64,000 nucleotides of DNA from Xanthomarina spongicola (lineage in GTDB: Bacteria; Bacteroidota; Bacteroidia; Flavobacteriales; Flavobacteriaceae), in contig NZ_QGGP01000001.1 in assembly GCF_003148645.1 (NCBI RefSeq), positions 186,001 to 250,000 of the forward strand, given 5' to 3'. Under the pieces are notes generated by a model. It had not been told where the DNA came from, ran no database searches, and saw nothing but the letters and a program-made list of their open reading frames with translations. This document shows positions 9,109-30,981 of this stretch, one piece after another. Each line of letters opens with the position of its first letter. Within the stretch, counting starts at the first letter, position 1. A program made the position numbers and the translations under genes.

Positions 9109-11457
9109 ATGAATAAAAGAGTCTCTTTATTATTTATTTTATTTATTCCTTTAATTTCTATAGCCCAAGATTATTCTGCGCTTTGGGATGGTTATTTTTC
9201 TTATCTAAATGTAAAAGATGTCTCAAAAGGAAATGGCAAAATATATGTAGCTGCTGAAAACGCTATTTTTACTTATGATTTAGAAACATCTGAATTAGAG
9301 ACGCTTACTACCATAAATGGTTTGTCTGGTGAAGAAATTTCAAAAATTTACTATAGTGAAGCATATGAATTATTAATAATAGGCTATGTAAATGGGCTTA
9401 TTGAAATTGCTTTAGATAATAATGAAAATATTTTAACTGTTGTAGATATCTTAGATAAACCAACCATACCTCCTACAGATAAAAAAATAAATCATTTTGA
9501 AGAATATAATGAGTTTGTTTACATATCAACAGACTATGGCATCTCAGTTTATGACTTGTCAAGACTTGAATTTGGTGATACTTATTTTATAGGTAGTGGA
9601 GGTTCACAAATAATTGTTAGACAAACTGCAGTCTCTGGAGACTATATTTATGCAGCCTGCATTAATAGTGGTGGTCTTAAAAGAGCTCTAGTTAATAGTA
9701 CAAATTTAATAGATTTTCAAGAATGGGAAATAATCAGTGGAGGGAATGTTGCAGCAGTAGAATCTACAGATGAAGGTGATGTATACACTGTTAAAGTAAA
9801 TAGAAAAGTTTATAGAGTAGTAGACACTAATTTAGAATTTTTAGTTCAAATCCCAGATCAAACAATAGATTTTAGAAATGTAAATAACAATCTATTTTTA
9901 ACTACAAAAAACGAATCTTATTTTTTTAATGGTGAGTTTGAACAAATAGACCTTATTCCTATACCAGTAGAATACCCTACTAAATTTTCGGCAACTACAA
10001 TGGATGGTGACTATATGTATATTGGTACAGAAGATTTTGGCCTCTTAAAAATAGCTTATTTTAATCATAATGATATTACTGAAATCCATCCAGATGGCCC
10101 ATTATTGAACAGCCCTTTTGCTATTCAAACAATTCCAAATAATCTTTGGGTAACATTTGGTGATTATTCTTTAACGTATAATTCATATCCAGAAAAAGAA
10201 AGAGGATTCAGTCATTTAAATAATGAAACTTGGATTAATATCCCGTACGATAGTGTTTTAGGTGCCAGAAATTTAAATAAAATTTCTGTTAACCCCTTCA
10301 ATAATCAACAGGTATTTATTAGTTCTTTTGAAGATGGTTTAATTGAAGTAAATAACGATTCGCCAACTATATTATACGATGAATCTAATAGTGGTTTGCA
10401 TTCTGCAATTCATCCCACAAACCCTAATTTTCGAAGTGTTAGGGTAAGTGCTTCAACTTTCGATTCAAGTGGTGTATTATGGACTATGACAGGAAGAGTT
10501 GCAGAACCATTAACTTCTTATGATCCTAATTCAGGTCAATGGGATAGTTTTGATTTTACTGATTTAATACCTGATGCCTTTGATGGGGAATGGGGTTATA
10601 GTGATATAGAAGTGGATAATAATGGCACGAAATGGATTGGAGCTTATAATAACGGACTAATTGGTTTTAACAATAATAATGGCATTCAATTAAAAAGCAT
10701 AAACACTGAAGAGCAAAACATGCCAACAACATTTGTTTCCTCAGTAGCAATTGATAAAAGGAATCAAATCTGGATTGGAACCATTAGTGGCTTAAGAGTG
10801 TTATATAATACATCAGCATTTTTTACAGATTCAGCCATTGAAGCACAACAAATTATTATTTTGGATGATGGTGTTCCAAAAGAACTCCTGTTTCAAACGT
10901 ACGTTTCAGACATAGAAGTAGATGGATCAAACAACAAATGGATAGGAACAATTGGAGCTGGATTATTTTATTTCTCCTCAGATGGACAACAAACTATATA
11001 TCATTTCACAAAAGACAATTCTCCACTCCCTACAAATAATGTAGTTGATGTTGCCTTAGATGATGCTACTGGTGTTGTATATATTGCTACTGACAAGGGA
11101 TTAGTTTCATATAATGCAGGTGGTTCGCAAACAGAGGTAACTTTAGAAAACGCTTTTATTTTTCCAAACCCTGTTAGGCCATCTTACGATATAAATAATA
11201 AAAAGGTGAAAATAAGAGGTATTACAGATAGCATGAATATTAAGATTACAGATATTGAAGGAAATCTTGTTGCTGAAGCTCAATCTAACACAAATTTACG
11301 CTATCAAGGCTATAATTTGGAAATAGATGGAGGAACTGCCTATTGGAATGGTAAAAATCTAGGGAACAATACTGTAGCTTCAGGAGTATATATGGTAATG
11401 TTGAATGATTTAGAAACTTTCGAGACTAAAGTTATTAAATTAATGGTAGTGAGGTAA
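9109..11457 (+). CDS. porZ: Type IX secretion system protein PorZ
   Basis: The 782-residue protein has a signal peptide (cleavage after LISIAQ), then opens DYSALWDGYFSYLNVKDVS, followed by two-component-regulator-type beta-propeller repeats (for example NKWIGTIGAGLFYFSSDG near residue 625 and the similar TKWIGAYNNGLIGF near 512). It ends with a beta-sandwich domain resembling a T9SS sorting domain (IFPNPVRPSYD to the C-terminal KVIKLMVVR). That layout, propellers plus a CTD-like end at about 780 residues, is that of PorZ, a surface component of the T9SS attachment complex that processes and anchors cargo. recO overlaps its stop codon by one base, so both share a message. Confidence 0.82.
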   Translation: MNKRVSLLFILFIPLISIAQDYSALWDGYFSYLNVKDVSKGNGKIYVAAENAIFTYDLETSELETLTTINGLSGEEISKIYYSEAYELLIIGYVNGLIEIALDNNENILTVVDILDKPTIPPTDKKINHFEEYNEFVYISTDYGISVYDLSRLEFGDTYFIGSGGSQIIVRQTAVSGDYIYAACINSGGLKRALVNSTNLIDFQEWEIISGGNVAAVESTDEGDVYTVKVNRKVYRVVDTNLEFLVQIPDQTIDFRNVNNNLFLTTKNESYFFNGEFEQIDLIPIPVEYPTKFSATTMDGDYMYIGTEDFGLLKIAYFNHNDITEIHPDGPLLNSPFAIQTIPNNLWVTFGDYSLTYNSYPEKERGFSHLNNETWINIPYDSVLGARNLNKISVNPFNNQQVFISSFEDGLIEVNNDSPTILYDESNSGLHSAIHPTNPNFRSVRVSASTFDSSGVLWTMTGRVAEPLTSYDPNSGQWDSFDFTDLIPDAFDGEWGYSDIEVDNNGTKWIGAYNNGLIGFNNNNGIQLKSINTEEQNMPTTFVSSVAIDKRNQIWIGTISGLRVLYNTSAFFTDSAIEAQQIIILDDGVPKELLFQTYVSDIEVDGSNNKWIGTIGAGLFYFSSDGQQTIYHFTKDNSPLPTNNVVDVALDDATGVVYIATDKGLVSYNAGGSQTEVTLENAFIFPNPVRPSYDINNKKVKIRGITDSMNIKITDIEGNLVAEAQSNTNLRYQGYNLEIDGGTAYWNGKNLGNNTVASGVYMVMLNDLETFETKVIKLMVVR

Positions 11458-25827: not shown

Positions 25828-27036
25828 TTATTTCGAAAGAAGAATTGACACGGCATTTCCACCAAATCCAACTGCGTTAATTAAGATGTTTTTGATGCGT
25901 TTTGGTTTTACTTCGTCGATATAAGGAACAGAAACAAACTCATTGTATTTTAGCATTAAAATAGCCATTTCTATATTTAACATTCCTGAAGCACCAAGGC
26001 TATGACCAATCTTCCACTTATTAGTTGTCAATGAGGGAGTTTTGTTACAAAATATTTTTTTGATAGCATTAAATTCAGAAATATCTCCTTTTATAGTTCC
26101 TGGAGTATGAGTAACAATAACATCTATTTCGTCTGGATTTAAATCTCCTAAAGCCATCTTCATGGAGCGTTGAAAACAGAGAGCATTTGTTGATAACGAG
26201 GCGTTGTGTTCCAAGATTTCAGTGGCATAACCTATCCCTTTAATTGTTGCTAATGCATTCGGATTTTCACCTTTTTCTAAACAAGCCATAGAAGCAGCTT
26301 CGCTAAGAATCATTGTGTTTTTATTTTTATTTAGATCTAAGGCACGACATGGGTAAGATTCTGGAATGTCTGGTCGAGCGCAGTCGAGACCTATATCAAC
26401 CTCTCGACTGAGCTCTAGGTGACTTAAACTATTTGATTTCGCATAAATTTTAAGAGCTTGCATTTGCGAAATAGTGAATGCTGTTAAAGGCGCTTCGCTA
26501 CCACCAACCAAGAATTTCTTACACATCCCAGAATTAAGCCAAGCAATACCATTTAATAAAGCATGTAGCGCTGTGGAGCAGGTAATAGAATGTGAGATTT
26601 CTGGGCCTTGTGTTTGTAAATCATGAGCTACCCAAGATGAAATATTGCCTAACGTAGTTGTTGGAGAGCTTAATGGTTTTGTTTTGTCTTTTTTAAGAAA
26701 AAACTTATGATGATTTTCAAAAAGCTCTGTTGCTCCTCTTGAAGAACCAATATTAATTCCAAAATCATCGGAAGCTATCCAACCAGCTTGTTTTATGGCT
26801 TCTCTGGATGTATAAATAGCATATAAAACCGAATTGTCTAAAGCCTTATATTTAACGTCTGATGCTCTTAACTTTTTAATTTCAGCTTTTAATTCTGCAG
26901 GTAATTCGGCAACGTAATTATTATCTTTAATTGAAAAATAATGTTGTTTGTTTTTATAAGCTTGCCAAATCTCATCTGTTGTTTTACCAAGGGGAGAAAT
27001 AGTTGCTAAGCTAGTAATGGAAATGGGTTGAATCAT
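25828..27036 (-). CDS. Beta-ketoacyl synthase of the biotin operon
   Basis: The 402-residue protein has the thiolase fold with a Cys-His-His triad: SITCSTALHALLNG (Cys near residue 155), VTHTPGTIKGD (His near 308) and KIGHSLGASGMLNIE (His near 350). It resembles condensing enzymes of the FabF type but is diverged. Its position after bioA suggests a role in making the pimeloyl chain, which is inference. The start MIQPISITSLATISPLG is used because the longer reading MLKQVQHDN is the translation of palindromic element C. A 56-bp palindromic element (26368-26423) is read in frame near residues 205-223. Confidence 0.8.
   Translation of the reverse strand: MIQPISITSLATISPLGKTTDEIWQAYKNKQHYFSIKDNNYVAELPAELKAEIKKLRASDVKYKALDNSVLYAIYTSREAIKQAGWIASDDFGINIGSSRGATELFENHHKFFLKKDKTKPLSSPTTTLGNISSWVAHDLQTQGPEISHSITCSTALHALLNGIAWLNSGMCKKFLVGGSEAPLTAFTISQMQALKIYAKSNSLSHLELSREVDIGLDCARPDIPESYPCRALDLNKNKNTMILSEAASMACLEKGENPNALATIKGIGYATEILEHNASLSTNALCFQRSMKMALGDLNPDEIDVIVTHTPGTIKGDISEFNAIKKIFCNKTPSLTTNKWKIGHSLGASGMLNIEMAILMLKYNEFVSVPYIDEVKPKRIKNILINAVGFGGNAVSILLSK
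26368..26423. repeat. Palindromic element read in frame inside the ketoacyl synthase gene
   Basis: The two arms, 26368-26391 and 26398-26423, share the core GAGCnCAGTCGAGA in inverted orientation with a 6-bp loop. It encodes the stretch LELSREVDIGLDCARPDIP between KIYAKS and YPCRALDLNK. The GTCGAGCGCAGTCGAG core is of a kind often scattered in Bacteroidetes genomes (recalled, not searched). Confidence 0.7.
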
Positions 27037-27042
27037 TTTGTT

Positions 27043-27068
27043 GTCATGCTGAACTTGTTTCAGCATCT
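27043..27068 (+). repeat. Palindromic element copy C (left type), beside GIY-YIG gene
   Basis: Stem 27046-27053 ATGCTGAA with 27059-27066 TTCAGCAT, loop CTTGT, flanks GTC and CT. It ends 6 bp before the GIY-YIG stop codon and begins 7 bp upstream of the ketoacyl synthase ATG. Identical to copy E over 26 bp. Confidence 0.9.
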
Positions 27069-27074
27069 CATTTT

Positions 27075-27356
27075 TTATTGATAACTTAATGTTTTTAAAG
27101 TTGGATTAAACTTTCTAATTAAATTTAATTTCCACTCTTTATGCCAATTTTTCAATTGTTTTTCTCTTGCAATTGCTTGATTAATATCTGTGAATTCTTC
27201 ATAATAGATTAAATCTTTTATATTGTATTTCTTTGTATAGACTGAAGCAACTCCTTCATAATGCTCATATAATCTTTTCGATAAATTAGCAATAACACCT
27301 ATATAGAAAGTGGTTCTATATTTATTTGTTAATATGTAAGTGTAACTTAATTGCAT
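27075..27356 (-). CDS. Small GIY-YIG nuclease-domain protein
   Basis: The 93 residues are a single GIY-YIG domain: YTYILTNKYRTTFYIGVIAN carries the two signature strands (YIL and YIG, residues 7-9 and 18-20), RLYEHYEGVASVYTKKYN has the catalytic-type Arg and a conserved His/Tyr, and EREKQLKNWHKEWK-like AREKQLKNWHKEWK near residue 62 holds the metal-binding Glu. It belongs with the short UPF0213/YhbQ-like group. It lies between bioA and the ketoacyl synthase gene and is bracketed by inverted palindromes 6 bp beyond its stop and 9 bp before its start. It looks like an insertion in the biotin operon; nuclease activity is predicted only. Confidence 0.85.
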   Translation of the reverse strand: MQLSYTYILTNKYRTTFYIGVIANLSKRLYEHYEGVASVYTKKYNIKDLIYYEEFTDINQAIAREKQLKNWHKEWKLNLIRKFNPTLKTLSYQ

Positions 27357-27365
27357 AAATATTAT

Positions 27366-27393
27366 GTGACACTGAAACGAGTTCAGTGTGACG
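27366..27393 (+). repeat. Palindromic element copy D (right type), beside GIY-YIG gene
   Basis: Stem 27369-27376 ACACTGAA with 27382-27389 TTCAGTGT, loop ACGAG, then GACG. The sequence from the GIY-YIG start codon through this element (27354-27378) is repeated exactly at 28777-28801 except at the last loop position region. Confidence 0.9.
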
Positions 27394-27419
27394 TTTCATT
27401 TTATACTGACCTTACAAAT

Positions 27420-28685
27420 TTAAACTATTGACAAAGCTTCTTCAATGGTTTGATACACTTTTTCTAATTGCGAATCTGAAACAACATAAGGTGCTTGAAT
27501 GTAAATGGTATTGCCTAATGGACGAAGAAAAACGCCTTTGTCTAAAAAGAATGAAAAGAGCTTGTCTCTTAAATTTCCATATCGAGCCATTTCTGTATTC
27601 AAATCCAAAGCGAAAATAACACCTAATTGTCTGGTGGATTTTACTTTTGGATGATTTTTGATTCGTAAATTAAAGGCTTCATGTGATGCTTTAATTCTTA
27701 TAATATTATTCTGAATTTCTTCAGATTGTAGCAATTCAATTCCAGCCAAAGCTGCAGTACAAGCTAATGGATTTGCAGAATATGTGTGTCCATGAAATAA
27801 GCCTTTACCTATTTCATCGCTATAAAAAGCATCATAAATTTCTTGCGAACAAGACGTGATTGCCATTGGCATTAAGCCAGCTGTTAAAGCTTTACTCAAA
27901 CATATAATATCTGGTTTGGTTTCCATATAATCTGAAGCATAGTGTTTTCCAGTTTTTCCAAAACCAGTCATCACTTCATCAGCAACAGTAACAATATTGT
28001 TCTTTTCACAAAACTTTAAAATAAGCTCTAAGCCTTCTGCATCATGTATTTTCATAGCTGCTGCTCCTTGAACTAAAGGTTCGTAAACAAAACCTGCTAC
28101 TTGTTGTGTTTCAAGAAGCGATTGTAATGCATTTAAAATAGCTTCGTGATTGGTTCCATTAGGTGTTGGAATTCGCTTAACATCTAAAAAGAAATCTGCA
28201 AATGGTCCATTATAAACCGATAATCCAGACACACTCATAGCCCCAAATGTGTCGCCATGAAATCCATCTTCGAAAGCTATTAACGTGTTCCGTTTTTCAC
28301 CTTTATTAAAATGATATTGCAAAGCCATCTTAATGCCTATCTCAACAGAGGTAGAACCATTATCGCTAAAAAATAATTTATTCTGATTTTTAGGAAGAAT
28401 TTGGATTAAAGCTTCTGATAATTTTATAGCTGGTTCGTGAGTAAAACCCGTAAAAACAACTTGATCGAGTTGTTGCATCTGACTTGAAACTCGACTTGTA
28501 ATAAATTCGTTACAATGGCCATACATACAGGTGTACCAAGACGCAATGGCATCTATATATTCCTTGCCATCTTCGTCTGTTAACACACAACCTTTTGCTT
28601 TTGTTATCGCAATTGTTTCTGGATGCAATTTATGTTGCGTTAATGGATGCCAAAGATGTTTTTTATCTCTTTCTTTTAATGTCAT
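27420..28685 (-). CDS. bioA: Adenosylmethionine-8-amino-7-oxononanoate aminotransferase
   Basis: BioA transfers an amino group from S-adenosylmethionine to KAPA, giving DAPA in biotin synthesis. The 421-residue protein has the class III aminotransferase features: HLWHPLTQHKL at the N-terminus (BioA-specific WHPxTQ), ASWYTCMYGHCN near 47, the acidic VADEVMTGFGKTGK near 240 and the PLP lysine in CLSKALTAGLMPM near 273. A start three codons upstream (28694) overlaps palindromic element E, so MTLKERDKKH is preferred. It lies between bioD and the ketoacyl synthase, with repeat insertions on both sides. Confidence 0.95.
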   Translation of the reverse strand: MTLKERDKKHLWHPLTQHKLHPETIAITKAKGCVLTDEDGKEYIDAIASWYTCMYGHCNEFITSRVSSQMQQLDQVVFTGFTHEPAIKLSEALIQILPKNQNKLFFSDNGSTSVEIGIKMALQYHFNKGEKRNTLIAFEDGFHGDTFGAMSVSGLSVYNGPFADFFLDVKRIPTPNGTNHEAILNALQSLLETQQVAGFVYEPLVQGAAAMKIHDAEGLELILKFCEKNNIVTVADEVMTGFGKTGKHYASDYMETKPDIICLSKALTAGLMPMAITSCSQEIYDAFYSDEIGKGLFHGHTYSANPLACTAALAGIELLQSEEIQNNIIRIKASHEAFNLRIKNHPKVKSTRQLGVIFALDLNTEMARYGNLRDKLFSFFLDKGVFLRPLGNTIYIQAPYVVSDSQLEKVYQTIEEALSIV

Positions 28686-28689
28686 ATGC

Positions 28690-28715
28690 GTCATGCTGAA
28701 CTTGTTTCAGCATCT
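28690..28715 (+). repeat. Palindromic element copy E (left type)
   Basis: Stem 28693-28700 ATGCTGAA with 28706-28713 TTCAGCAT, loop CTTGT; identical to copy C. It sits at the very start of bioA and supplies the upstream in-frame ATG at 28694. Paired with inverted copy F, 73 bp away. Confidence 0.9.
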
Positions 28716-28749
28716 TATTGTTTTGATTTTATTCTTTTGAACTTTCTTT

Positions 28750-28776
28750 AAATTAGTAAAAATGTATTACTAATTT
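28750..28776 (-). repeat. Hairpin between bioD and bioA inside the E-F unit
   Basis: AAATTAGTAA (28750-28759) pairs with TTACTAATTT (28767-28776) around a seven-base loop. No T-run follows in the direction of transcription, so it is not an evident terminator. Confidence 0.6.
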
Positions 28777-28788
28777 CATAAATATTAT

Positions 28789-28816
28789 GTGACACTGAAA
28801 CAAGTTCAGTGCGACG
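28789..28816 (+). repeat. Palindromic element copy F (right type)
   Basis: Stem 28792-28799 ACACTGAA with 28805-28812 TTCAGTGC (one mismatch), loop ACAAG, then GACG. It ends 4 bp from the bioD stop codon. Its upstream flank repeats the one of copy D, including the CAT that is the GIY-YIG start codon there. Confidence 0.88.
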
Positions 28817-28820
28817 AAAA

Positions 28821-29429
28821 TTACAACTTGCTTCGAAATAGTTCTGCATACTCCAAAATCACATTTTTATCAAAATATGGCTCTTCATCTATTCGTCCAA
28901 TAATTGGGGCTTTCGTCATTTTTCTTATGATATCTTCAGTTGTTTTATGTTCTTTCCCACTAAAAATAATAGACACTTGAAAACCTTTTTCTTTCAACAG
29001 ATTTACCGTTAAAAGCGTGTGATTGATGCTTCCTAAATAATGTCTGGAAACCACAACAACATGATGTTCAGGCTTTATAATATCTAAAACCGTTTGCTTA
29101 CTATTAATTGGAACCAACAAACCTCCAGCGCCTTCAATGACCAAATGGTTCTTGGTTTTTGGTTCTATAATTCCTTTTATAGTTATAGCAATGGCATCGA
29201 TATCAGCAGCTGCATGAGGACTCATAGGTGTTTTTAAAGCATAACTATTTGGATGGAATTTTGACTTTTTATTAGACACTAATTTTTCTACTTTTTTAGT
29301 ATCGCAATTATCTAGTTCTCCAGCTTGAATGGGTTTCCAGTAATCTGCTTGAAGTGCTTCAACTATAATAGCAGAAGCTATGGTTTTTCCAACATCTGTA
29401 GAGATTCCTGTAACAAAATAGGTTTTCAT
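28821..29429 (-). CDS. bioD: Dethiobiotin synthetase
   Basis: BioD closes the ureido ring of DAPA with CO2 and ATP to give dethiobiotin. The P-loop-like TGISTDVGKTIASAI (residues 7-21) and the ATP-Mg segment VIEGAGGLLVPIN near 98 are family signatures; KPIQAGELDNCDTKK near 36 carries the substrate lysine. At 202 residues it is a little shorter than the E. coli enzyme (about 225). Its start overlaps the stop of the DUF2007 gene by 4 bp (ATGA type), so translation is coupled. Confidence 0.95.
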   Translation of the reverse strand: MKTYFVTGISTDVGKTIASAIIVEALQADYWKPIQAGELDNCDTKKVEKLVSNKKSKFHPNSYALKTPMSPHAAADIDAIAITIKGIIEPKTKNHLVIEGAGGLLVPINSKQTVLDIIKPEHHVVVVSRHYLGSINHTLLTVNLLKEKGFQVSIIFSGKEHKTTEDIIRKMTKAPIIGRIDEEPYFDKNVILEYAELFRSKL

Positions 29430-29839
29430 TTTAAATCGAATTCGGTTTGGCAGGCTTCACATCGATACTTATGTCTGGTATAAAATGGAAGCGATGAAAA
29501 TAAGACTCCAAAAATAAACCATATTAATGATTTGGCATCTTTAATTGTAGAAAAGAGTTCTATTTTTTCGCTTTTGCAGTTTGGACAATTTATAGAATTC
29601 CCTTCGTCGTCTATAGAATATTTTCTAATGGATTCTAAAATTTCTATAGCTTCGTCACTTTGTTCTAATAATACTTTTAATTTAACGCCTCCAATGGCAT
29701 TACTTACTAACGGATCTGTGTCGATTGTTAAATTATCGGAAAGGAAAACTTCAATCCCTTCGGCCTCAAGACGACCTTTAATAATTTGTGCCTCAGAAGA
29801 ATACTGAAATCTGGCAATGGTTTTAAATGTGTCTGTCAT
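29426..29839 (-). CDS. DUF2007-domain protein with C-terminal zinc ribbon
   Basis: The 137-residue protein has an N-terminal DUF2007-type domain (about 5-70: TIARFQYSSEAQIIKGRLEA, then the typical IGGVKLKVLLEQSDEAIEIL) linked to a zinc-ribbon-like part with CPNC near 85 and CEAC near 129, enclosing a hydrophobic segment (LIWFIFGVLFSSLPFY). DUF2007 proteins are called putative signal-transducing proteins; no activity is known. It overlaps bioD by 4 bp and bioF by 4 bp, so it is embedded in the biotin operon, but no biotin role can be claimed. Confidence 0.75.
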   Translation of the reverse strand: MTDTFKTIARFQYSSEAQIIKGRLEAEGIEVFLSDNLTIDTDPLVSNAIGGVKLKVLLEQSDEAIEILESIRKYSIDDEGNSINCPNCKSEKIELFSTIKDAKSLIWFIFGVLFSSLPFYTRHKYRCEACQTEFDLK

Positions 29840-30981
29840 ATCTTTAAAAGTGAGGCTAATAACTGTAAAATATCTTTTATTTCTTTTTCTGAATTAAAGC
29901 TATGTAAGCAAAAACGCAAGCGTTCTTCTCCTGCTGGAACTGTTGGCGAAAGAATAGGTTTAACATCGAATCCTTTTTTTAAGAGTTGGTTTGAAAGAGC
30001 TTTTACATTTTCGTTCCCAGAAACCAAACAACATTGAATTGCTGAATTGCTGTTTATAAAATGATGCTGAATCTTATTTTTAATAATCTCAGCTTTAAAA
30101 AAGGTAATGTTATTATGTAATTTCGATATTTCGTGTGTTTTGGGCAATTCCATATAAACAGACTTGATTGTCATTAACGTATGTGGAGGAAGTGCTGTGG
30201 TGTAAATAAACGAACGTGCAAAATTCACCAAGTATTCCGTAAGTTCTTTGCTTCCTAAGATAGCTGCTCCATGACTTCCAAGTGCTTTTCCAAAAGTTAT
30301 TAATCTAGCAAACACTTGGTTTTCTAATCCTAATTCTTGAATTAAGCCTACACCTTTTTCGCCAAAAACGCCTGTGGCATGTGCTTCATCTATTACAACA
30401 AAAGCTTTATACTTTTTACTAATATTTATTAAAGAAACTAAATTTGGAGAATCGCCATCCATGGAAAACACGGATTCTGTAACAATATATATTACAGATT
30501 CGTCATGCTGAACTCGTTTCAGCATCTCATCCAGATGATCTAAATTATTATGCTTAAACTTATATGATTTTGCATGACTCATGGTGATGCCATCTCTTAT
30601 GGATGCATGAATGTATTCGTCGTATAAAATAATATCACCACGTTGTGGAACCGATGAAAAGAATCCTAAATTAGCATTGTAACCAGAATTAAATATTAAA
30701 GAAGACTCGCAATTGTGAAACTCGCAAAGCATGGCTTCAACTTCATTATAAAACTCATAATTTCCTGACAATAAACGAGATCCAGTGGAACCATTTCTAT
30801 GCAAATTATGTGATTCTAAATAATGATGCGTCATGTCGAAAATTTCTTTAGAATTTGAAAATCCTAAATAATCGTTAGACGAAAAATCTATCAAATCATG
30901 TTCTGTGCCTAATTGACGTAACATGTTTTGTGCTTTACGTTGGTTGATTTTTTCTTGTAGTTTTTTAGGAAAGTTGTTCAT
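29836..30981 (-). CDS. bioF: 8-amino-7-oxononanoate synthase
   Basis: BioF condenses pimeloyl thioester with alanine to KAPA, using PLP. Family markers are DLIDFSSNDYLGFSNSKE near residue 30, HRNGSTGSRLLSGNYEFYNE near 57 (substrate and PLP contacts), ESVFSMDGDSP near 170, VIDEAHATGVFGEKG near 197 (PLP Asp and His) and the PLP lysine in ITFGKALGSHGAAIL near 230. Length 381 is normal. Unusually, palindromic element G (30502-30527) is part of the reading frame and encodes EMLKRVQHDE in the segment before the ESVFSMDG motif. It overlaps its upstream neighbour by 17 bp. Confidence 0.95.
   Translation of the reverse strand: MNNFPKKLQEKINQRKAQNMLRQLGTEHDLIDFSSNDYLGFSNSKEIFDMTHHYLESHNLHRNGSTGSRLLSGNYEFYNEVEAMLCEFHNCESSLIFNSGYNANLGFFSSVPQRGDIILYDEYIHASIRDGITMSHAKSYKFKHNNLDHLDEMLKRVQHDESVIYIVTESVFSMDGDSPNLVSLINISKKYKAFVVIDEAHATGVFGEKGVGLIQELGLENQVFARLITFGKALGSHGAAILGSKELTEYLVNFARSFIYTTALPPHTLMTIKSVYMELPKTHEISKLHNNITFFKAEIIKNKIQHHFINSNSAIQCCLVSGNENVKALSNQLLKKGFDVKPILSPTVPAGEERLRFCLHSFNSEKEIKDILQLLASLLKI
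30502..30527 (+). repeat. Palindromic element copy G (left type) inside bioF
   Basis: Stem 30505-30512 ATGCTGAA with 30518-30525 TTCAGCAT, loop CTCGT, flanks GTC and CT. It differs from copies C and E by one loop base and lies wholly inside the bioF reading frame. Confidence 0.9.

Follow-up and report, generated by a model that had tools for sequence, protein, structure and literature searches.

The window analysed here is a stretch of 64,000 nucleotides from Xanthomarina spongicola (contig NZ_QGGP01000001.1, positions 186,001 to 250,000). Its positions 27042-27393 hold a compact cassette in which a gene for a GIY-YIG nuclease of 93 amino acids (27075-27356, minus strand; open reading frame call and Pfam match) lies between two inverted hairpins. 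The stop-side (left) hairpin (27042-27069, plus strand) is composed of the tag TGTC, an 8-bp stem (ATGCTGAA/TTCAGCAT), the loop CTTGT and the tail CTC. The start-side (right) hairpin (27366-27393, minus strand) has the tag CGTC, an 8-bp stem (ACACTGAA/TTCAGTGT), the loop CTCGT and the tail CAC, and the two tags both face outward ('HH' pair). The claim of a preliminary description of this DNA that inverted hairpins bracket the nuclease gene is thus borne out, its coordinates being off by 1-2 bases at most. The two hairpins differ from each other at two stem pairs, and these differences are compensating. Among 84 hairpins of the same type, Watson-Crick pairing is seen at these two positions in 76 and 78, respectively, versus 30.4 and 46.2 expected from column composition, counts that serve as a guide and not as a probability, since related hairpin copies enter several times.

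One flank of the cassette is formed by bioA (27420-28694, minus strand; TIGR00508 with 537 bits at a cut-off of 405), the other by a ketoacyl-synthase-like gene (25828-27066, minus strand) that is fabF-like and scores under the curated cut-off. The first codons called for the latter consist of hairpin DNA, and judging from relatives without the hairpin its true start is probably located at about position 27035. The same gene and its relatives (L057, L058 and L060) contain apparent short internal palindromes of other types that vary between relatives.

The hairpin core TGAACTNGTTTCA is present seven times in the window when up to one mismatch is allowed, as compared to 0.80 copies expected, and is therefore not a product of chance. 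Exact copies number seven in the whole 3.16-Mb genome, versus one for the reversed control pattern, and five of these seven are concentrated at window positions 27050-30521, i.e. within 3.5 kb. A gene-less inverted hairpin pair, recognized from the sequence and the pattern count, lies upstream of bioA (28689-28816). In addition, a lone hairpin of the type found in the cassette (30501-30528, plus strand; pattern count) resides in frame within an open reading frame that we take to be bioF. The right end of the gene-less pair is identical to the cassette over CATAAATATTATGTGACACTGAAAC, the nuclease start codon included, and because of this shared stretch we read the pair as an internal-deletion derivative. 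The remaining two exact core copies are found elsewhere in the genome (L018, position 9467, and L017, position 9402, both on the minus strand); one of them seems to belong to an outward pair whose partner is degenerate, and the other is embedded in a mosaic of three hairpin types.

The only Pfam match of the 93-residue protein is to the GIY-YIG domain (PF01541, E=2e-13), which covers residues 4-78. All residues conserved in 195 relatives are kept, namely Y7 (in 192 of the relatives), Y18 (194), G20 (195), R28 (193), H32 (194) and E65 (194), and among these we take Y7, Y18, R28, H32 and E65 to be the positions with catalytic roles in GIY-YIG nucleases. The closest solved structures are those of the UPF0213 proteins 1zg2 (E=3.9e-8) and 1ywl (E=3.3e-6), small GIY-YIG proteins that are structural relatives and were deposited as hypothetical proteins. 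Relatives are annotated as 'GIY-YIG nuclease family protein'. No NCBIfam model matches the protein, no match to it was obtained in PHROGs, and no record of the phage collection matches it. PADLOC yielded no family at E<=0.01, and a role as a defence gene was rejected on account of this result. An Rfam search at E<=1 returned only two matches, far under the gathering scores, which were taken as chance.

The history of the insertion site can be followed within the genus. A BioA search of eight genomes gave five matches at E<=1e-80 including the own one, while three genomes had no match. In the comparison of relatives that the preliminary description had proposed, the gene is not fixed downstream of bioA, between it and the ketoacyl synthase gene: of the four other genomes with bioA, two (G003 and G004) possess a short gap that contains neither gene nor hairpin, one (G002) retains the same cassette in decayed form with a 43-aa frame left, and one (G005) has lost the gene and possesses an intact stop-side hairpin together with a trace of the other. 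Because of these site states we consider that the cassette entered the genus group and is now being lost in places. An operon partnership of the nuclease with bioA or the ketoacyl synthase was rejected, as the site is empty in relatives. The gene-less pair at 28689-28816 is decayed in G002 and cleanly absent in G005 and G003, and the matching gap in G004 contains, by reading, a pair of the TTCCTGCG type. The hairpin within bioF also occurs in G005, is changed in G002 and appears degenerate in G003 (by reading). The bioF-like reading frame of G004 (L249) carries a hairpin in reverse orientation with another stem, again by reading.

The cassette is one of several such arrangements in the genome, which has 11 GIY-YIG matches in all. 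By eye, four further small GIY-YIG genes and one pseudogene adjoin hairpins of other types. L001 and the pseudogene about 1 kb off are accompanied by TTCCTGCG hairpins on both sides, L002 by a CTCGATA/CTCGAACTGAC element on both sides and L004 by CATTGCGA types on both sides, and at L003 a hairpin is present on the upstream side only. The matches L007 and L008 sit in long frames (606 and 461 aa) and were left out of the hairpin reading. Two more GIY-YIG genes adjoin tRNA genes. The end of a small one (G000:C1:133758-133970; L013, about 9664-9980) lies inside the start of tRNA-Ala(GGC), with a copy of the tRNA 5' end (GGGGGATTAGCTCAGTTGGCTA) upstream, and a truncated one (G000:C3:227532-227687; L015, to about 9727) ends just ahead of tRNA-Arg(TCG). 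The two possibly represent a separate, tRNA-targeted kind.

Relatives of the window protein occur in all eight genomes of the genus (27 matches). When 26 of these loci were compared for their sites (L051, a long frame, was left out), 20 were found to have at least one flank in common with a locus of another genome. Many insertions are therefore old, or the sites are hot spots, and this count speaks against rampant movement. At some of these common sites different nuclease types are present; L038 (cluster 9) and L040 (cluster 4), for example, are alike on both flanks. L033 and L045, the latter being the same gene as that in L009, match this neighbourhood on one side, and the clusters represented there in different genomes are 9, 4 and 0, which suggests a hot spot with turnover. 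G003 and G004 contain four and eight hairpin copies, respectively, and have no match to the window protein above 45% identity.

For a broader view, relatives were collected from a family sample, in which 82 of 120 genomes have a match to the window protein, and from a scan of GTDB contigs, from which the best 80 of 571 confirmed candidates were taken, most of them from Bacteroidota and some from Proteobacteria and candidate phyla. Together with further stretches, the resulting set comprises 226 distinct genes, 201 of them complete, and 194 or 195 had enough flank depending on the test; as the nuclease genes are mutually related, p-values are to be read as guides. A side was scored as positive when it matched, with a score of 18, a flank belonging to a nuclease gene at some other site or, with a score of 14, the opposite side of its own gene. 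On this basis 150 of 195 nuclease genes have hairpins of the family on both sides, 32 on one and 13 on none, so that at least one side is positive in 182 of 195; the corresponding figures for 422 control genes are 22, 79 and 321. Most relatives thus carry the hairpins, in line with the mobile unit suggested in the preliminary description, which a general lack of them would have refuted. The cut-off of 18 is the strictest of four; at 15, 16 and 17 the both-side counts are 169 versus 129, 159 versus 52 and 153 versus 28 for nuclease and control genes, respectively. The contrast is weaker at loose cut-offs because chance matches enter, and the control counts stay above zero in part because the repeats are scattered in the same genomes. 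These score cut-offs, like the 62% identity used for clustering below, were our choice.

The same picture emerged when the two flanks of each gene were compared directly. The best inverted match between the 200-bp flanks has a median score of 13.5 in the 194 nuclease genes as compared to 9.0 in the 422 controls, and 58.8% and 42.3% of the nuclease genes (n=194) lie over the 95th and 99th percentile of the controls, respectively (Mann-Whitney p=5e-37). Within the best-80 locus set, 77 loci had enough flank for a comparison with far flanks, and a score of at least 16 was reached in 28 of 77 cases versus 0 of 68 far-flank controls. Pairs formed across loci were discarded as a control, spoiled by common hairpin types, and were replaced by control genes and different-site pairs. 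When hairpins were scored by stem strength alone, none of 194 nuclease genes and two of 422 controls had them on both sides, the controls having equal or stronger stems, which are perhaps terminators. It is the matched sequence and not the strength of the stem that marks the pairs, since stem strength did not separate the two sets. Coincidence with terminators was rejected on the grounds of clade-specific hairpin types and of the both-side matches as compared to controls.

Nuclease and hairpin types go together. Among gene pairs located at different sites, the proportion that have a flank palindrome in common (score at least 15) rises from 0.9% at less than 35% protein identity (n=2316) over 10.9% at 45-50% and 67.5% at 60-70% to 81.7% at 70-80% (n=317), and reaches 95.1% in pairs more than 80% identical (n=41); 389 gene pairs possibly located at one site were set aside from this comparison. 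Hairpin similarity and nuclease identity at different sites are correlated with a Mantel rho of 0.31, the maximum of 999 permutations being 0.06. When the nucleases were grouped at 62% identity, the clusters mostly had their own hairpin type (among up to nine members listed per cluster), for instance TTCCTGCGnnGGCAGGAATCT for cluster 0 (62 genes) and CGTCAnnCTGAACTYGTTTCAGnnTC for cluster 3 (11 genes, including that of the window).

Hairpins also occur at a distance from the gene. For each pattern, exact copies were counted in the 120 genomes of the family sample, disregarding those up to 600 bp from a nuclease gene whose locus had been fetched; reversed control patterns did not occur in any of the 120. 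The cluster 0 hairpin was present in 12 of 14 genomes with the nuclease (mean 9.8 copies) versus 30 of 106 others (mean 1.9), and that of cluster 3 in 11 of 11 (mean 11.3) versus 41 of 109 (mean 2.1). For cluster 7 the difference is weak (3 of 5, mean 1.4, versus 11 of 115, mean 0.2), and for cluster 9 the hairpins are nearly confined to the vicinity of the gene (0 of 4 versus 3 of 116). The association in trans is thus good for two hairpin types, weak for one and absent for one. In these counts a nuclease was scored as present only where its locus had been fetched, which applies to 53 of the 82 matching genomes, and the remainder is contained in the groups 'without'. The pattern P3, present in the 41 of 109 genomes without a fetched cluster 3 gene, also accompanies cluster 0 (14 of 14 genomes) and cluster 8 (5 of 5), and some genomes are therefore rich in several hairpin types. 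Many genomes contain hairpins and no detected cognate nuclease gene. One locus (L174, G093:C1:1186300-1194600) combines four nuclease matches in 8 kb with five of the six P0 hairpins of its genome.

The arrangement extends to distant bacteria. With a relative of the proteobacterial type as query, 33 records of a plasmid collection were obtained, several of them chromosome-sized, and 14 were read for spread of organisms. By reading, hairpins are present on both sides at 10 of the 14 loci, i.e. in Neisseria gonorrhoeae, Azospirillum lipoferum, Novosphingobium aromaticivorans, Sinorhizobium meliloti, Rhizobium CIAT894, Shinella, Sphingobium TomMM7A, A. caviae, Planktothrix and Spirosoma; in the first four of these the bracketing repeats are of the CGTC REP kind. 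An eleventh, in Sphingobium TomTYG73, likewise has them on both sides, with the gene matching in two pieces. The other three are without clear both-side hairpins: Photobacterium and Sinorhizobium K101 are one-sided or unclear, and R. tumorigenes has none. The hairpins of N. gonorrhoeae read ATTCCC..GGGAAT, presumably the dRS3 pattern. On the Planktothrix plasmid p1 (L255) the nuclease gene has drmA of a DISARM system on one side and, on the other, a gene with the annotation of an MmeI-type restriction enzyme. In total, units of GIY-YIG gene and hairpins were met in Bacteroidota, Alpha-, Beta- and Gammaproteobacteria, a cyanobacterium and candidate phyla.

With a probability that we put at just over two in three, the element at 27042-27393 is an autonomous mobile unit in which a stand-alone GIY-YIG nuclease acts on its own flanking hairpins of the CGTC type of repetitive extragenic palindromes (REPs). 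The nuclease would recognize hairpins of its own sequence type and cut or nick at or near the tag or the loop, and the two inverted hairpins would constitute the ends of the moved unit. Gene-less inverted pairs would be moved in trans by the cognate nuclease as long as its gene lasts. After loss of the gene, gene-less pairs and lone hairpins would remain, some of them possibly still mobilised in trans by a cognate nuclease encoded elsewhere, the pairs decaying to lone hairpins. For CGTC REPs the nuclease would thereby have the role of RAYT (TnpA-REP) in GTAG REPs, although it belongs to another enzyme class. Sequence comparisons give good support to the mobility of the unit and to its cognate pairing, and the nuclease itself would perform the movement. 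Comparison demonstrates the pairing and its specificity, gain and loss at given sites (with filled and unfilled sites also in Sphingobium and in the suf operon of Azospirillum, described below), a gene-less derivative and a conserved active-site pattern, and all support for movement of the cassette is of this comparative kind. On the other side of the balance, inspection by eye of the 28689-28816 pair and of the Azospirillum site revealed no clear target-site duplication or exact joint, the intergenic DNA being too diverged, and hairpins persist in genomes with no detected cognate nuclease. From there we infer the nuclease as the cutter, the position of the cut, the action on single- or double-stranded DNA and the rejoining of the unit. 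The proposal in the preliminary description of a minimal mobile system similar to a RAYT/REP pair gains support, since each enzyme type goes with its hairpin type and a pair that lacks the gene is situated nearby.

The main rival is a homing-like spread, in which the nuclease cleaves solo palindromes on chromosomes devoid of the gene and repair from a cassette copy inserts the gene, splitting the palindrome in two; the unit would then enter pre-existing hairpins and not new places. GIY-YIG is a classic homing-endonuclease domain, and many sites are common within the genus, which also speaks for it. A further point in its favour is a gap between fnrL and a response regulator gene in Sphingobium, which is filled by hairpin, gene and hairpin in TomMM7A and, in TomTYG64 and TomTYG74, by a single hairpin that carries a tag at each end; TomTYG72 has another repeat there. 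Similarly, Sinorhizobium K101 has one double-ended hairpin and part of another where S. meliloti Ak57 possesses the gene and a gene remnant. Such lone hairpins could be targets, but they could equally be deletion scars, and the more distant Sphingobium records did not polarise them, the gap of TomTYG65 containing a hairpin of another type and two other records no clear hairpin. The empty sites tell against this route. That of G003 and G004 is without a hairpin. A further case is the suf operon of Azospirillum, in which the unit separates sufB from sufC in A. lipoferum 4B. Both sides of this site find matches in 11 further Azospirillum records, with 81-82% of the query covered, and the four that were read all lack both the nuclease unit and a CGTC hairpin, B510 having a different inverted repeat instead. 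Finally, homing leaves gene-less pairs at new sites unexplained, and we regard it as unlikely.

Considerably less probable is a spread of the hairpins by another enzyme, RAYT-like or an IS transposase, with the nuclease as cargo or as a factor that trims or clears palindromes. Hairpins do occur without a detected nuclease, and matches to the Y1 transposase are present in four of the eight genomes of the genus, strong in G002, G004 and G007 and weak in G001. Yet the own genome has no match to PF01797 (Y1, the RAYT-type transposase), which weakens an explanation by RAYT, and it is difficult to see why hairpins should pair by sequence with particular nuclease clades if the gene were cargo. According to a 2013 survey, transposase genes are associated with CGTC repeats in only a few cases, and fortuitously (PMC3733652). 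That an ordinary host nuclease gene stands by coincidence next to terminators or mRNA-stabilising hairpins is hardly credible and was already disfavoured, for even though hairpins are common near gene ends and the two sets cannot be told apart by stem strength alone, the matched inverted sequence on both sides, the clade-specific types at different sites and the empty sites all contradict it.

With slightly better than even odds, the GIY-YIG nuclease would be the mobilising enzyme of CGTC REPs in general, constituting a new chemistry class of bacterial mobile element that leaves dRS3, RPE and related repeats behind and whose matched pairs diversify. CGTC palindromes occur in several phyla, their holders including Bacteroidetes, alphaproteobacteria, Neisseria (dRS3), Rickettsia (RPE-4, RPE-6) and Wolbachia, and the survey that defined them leaves the mode of their spread open, a dedicated transposase not having been found (PMC3733652). 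The nuclease is thus a possible missing enzyme partner of widespread orphan DNA repeats, and with a dedicated GIY-YIG partner the spread of CGTC REPs comes within reach of direct tests that use a 93-residue enzyme together with short oligonucleotides. The life style of REP and RAYT would have arisen with a second, unrelated enzyme, and a function would be suggested for a common protein so far annotated only as a member of the GIY-YIG nuclease family.

In the open-access full-text literature, a scope outside of which preprints and most subscription papers lie, no paper linking GIY-YIG nucleases to REP-like palindromes was found. The word 'GIY' is absent from PMC12306157, PMC3733652 and PMC6006769, and in the portion of PMC9465073 available GIY-YIG and RAYT merely appear as one gene each in a list of clade-specific genes.

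Among known repeats, the CGTC REPs, including dRS3 and RPE-4/RPE-6, are like the cassette hairpins in tag, stem length, loop and the predominance of outward pairs. As described in the accessible sections of the survey, they have the tag CGTC, often changed to TGTC or CCTC, a stem of 8-9 bp with complementary A/T at stem positions 1 and 2, a loop of 4-5 nucleotides and a short unpaired tail, mostly CCA, and form mainly outward pairs (PMC3733652). The tags found here agree with this description (CGTC at 27390-27393 on the minus strand, at 28689-28692 and at 30501-30504; TGTC at 27042-27045), as do the 8-bp stems and 5-nt loops. The rule for the first stem positions applies at position 1, which is A-T in 71 of 84 hairpins, and in part at position 2, which is T-A in 56, A-T in 5 and C-G in 17 of the 84, the start-side hairpin of the cassette being one with C-G. 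The cassette tails are CTC and CAC in contrast to the prevailing CCA, which is found at other loci (L099, L103 and L104; S. meliloti, Shinella and Rhizobium). Close pairs of pattern P0 (within 160 bp) are HH in ten cases, TT in three and HT in none, among 149 of 369 sites listed; this count takes in pattern P0 alone, as the rows for P3 were hand-picked. In the parts of the survey consulted, CGTC REPs are reported as apparently without a dedicated or associated transposase (PMC3733652), whereas here a GIY-YIG gene is located between the hairpins.

The cassette shares further traits with other systems. GIY-YIG homing endonucleases have the same catalytic domain and are likewise present or absent at given sites; for the cassette, however, no intron or conserved host gene was seen as a target, the element is flanked by its own hairpins, and Pfam detects a single domain in the 93 residues. 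The gene-less pair at 28689-28816 presumably resembles an internal-deletion derivative of the kind seen in prokaryotic MITEs, except that the parent element encodes a nuclease and not a known transposase. The closest parallel in working is the REP/RAYT (TnpA-REP) system with its REPINs, in which a gene likewise lies between tagged palindromes, enzyme and palindrome types are matched, and gene-less inverted pairs are scattered in the genome. When the cassette is compared to the definition of a RAYT or REPtron, a Y1 gene and GTAG tags are absent and flanking cognate palindromes are present, the latter constituting an analogy of working with RAYT and not membership. RAYT is a Y1 tyrosine transposase of the IS200/IS605 kind whose REPs are tagged GTAG, as stated in the available part of the survey (PMC3733652), whereas the cassette combines a GIY-YIG nuclease with CGTC and TGTC tags.
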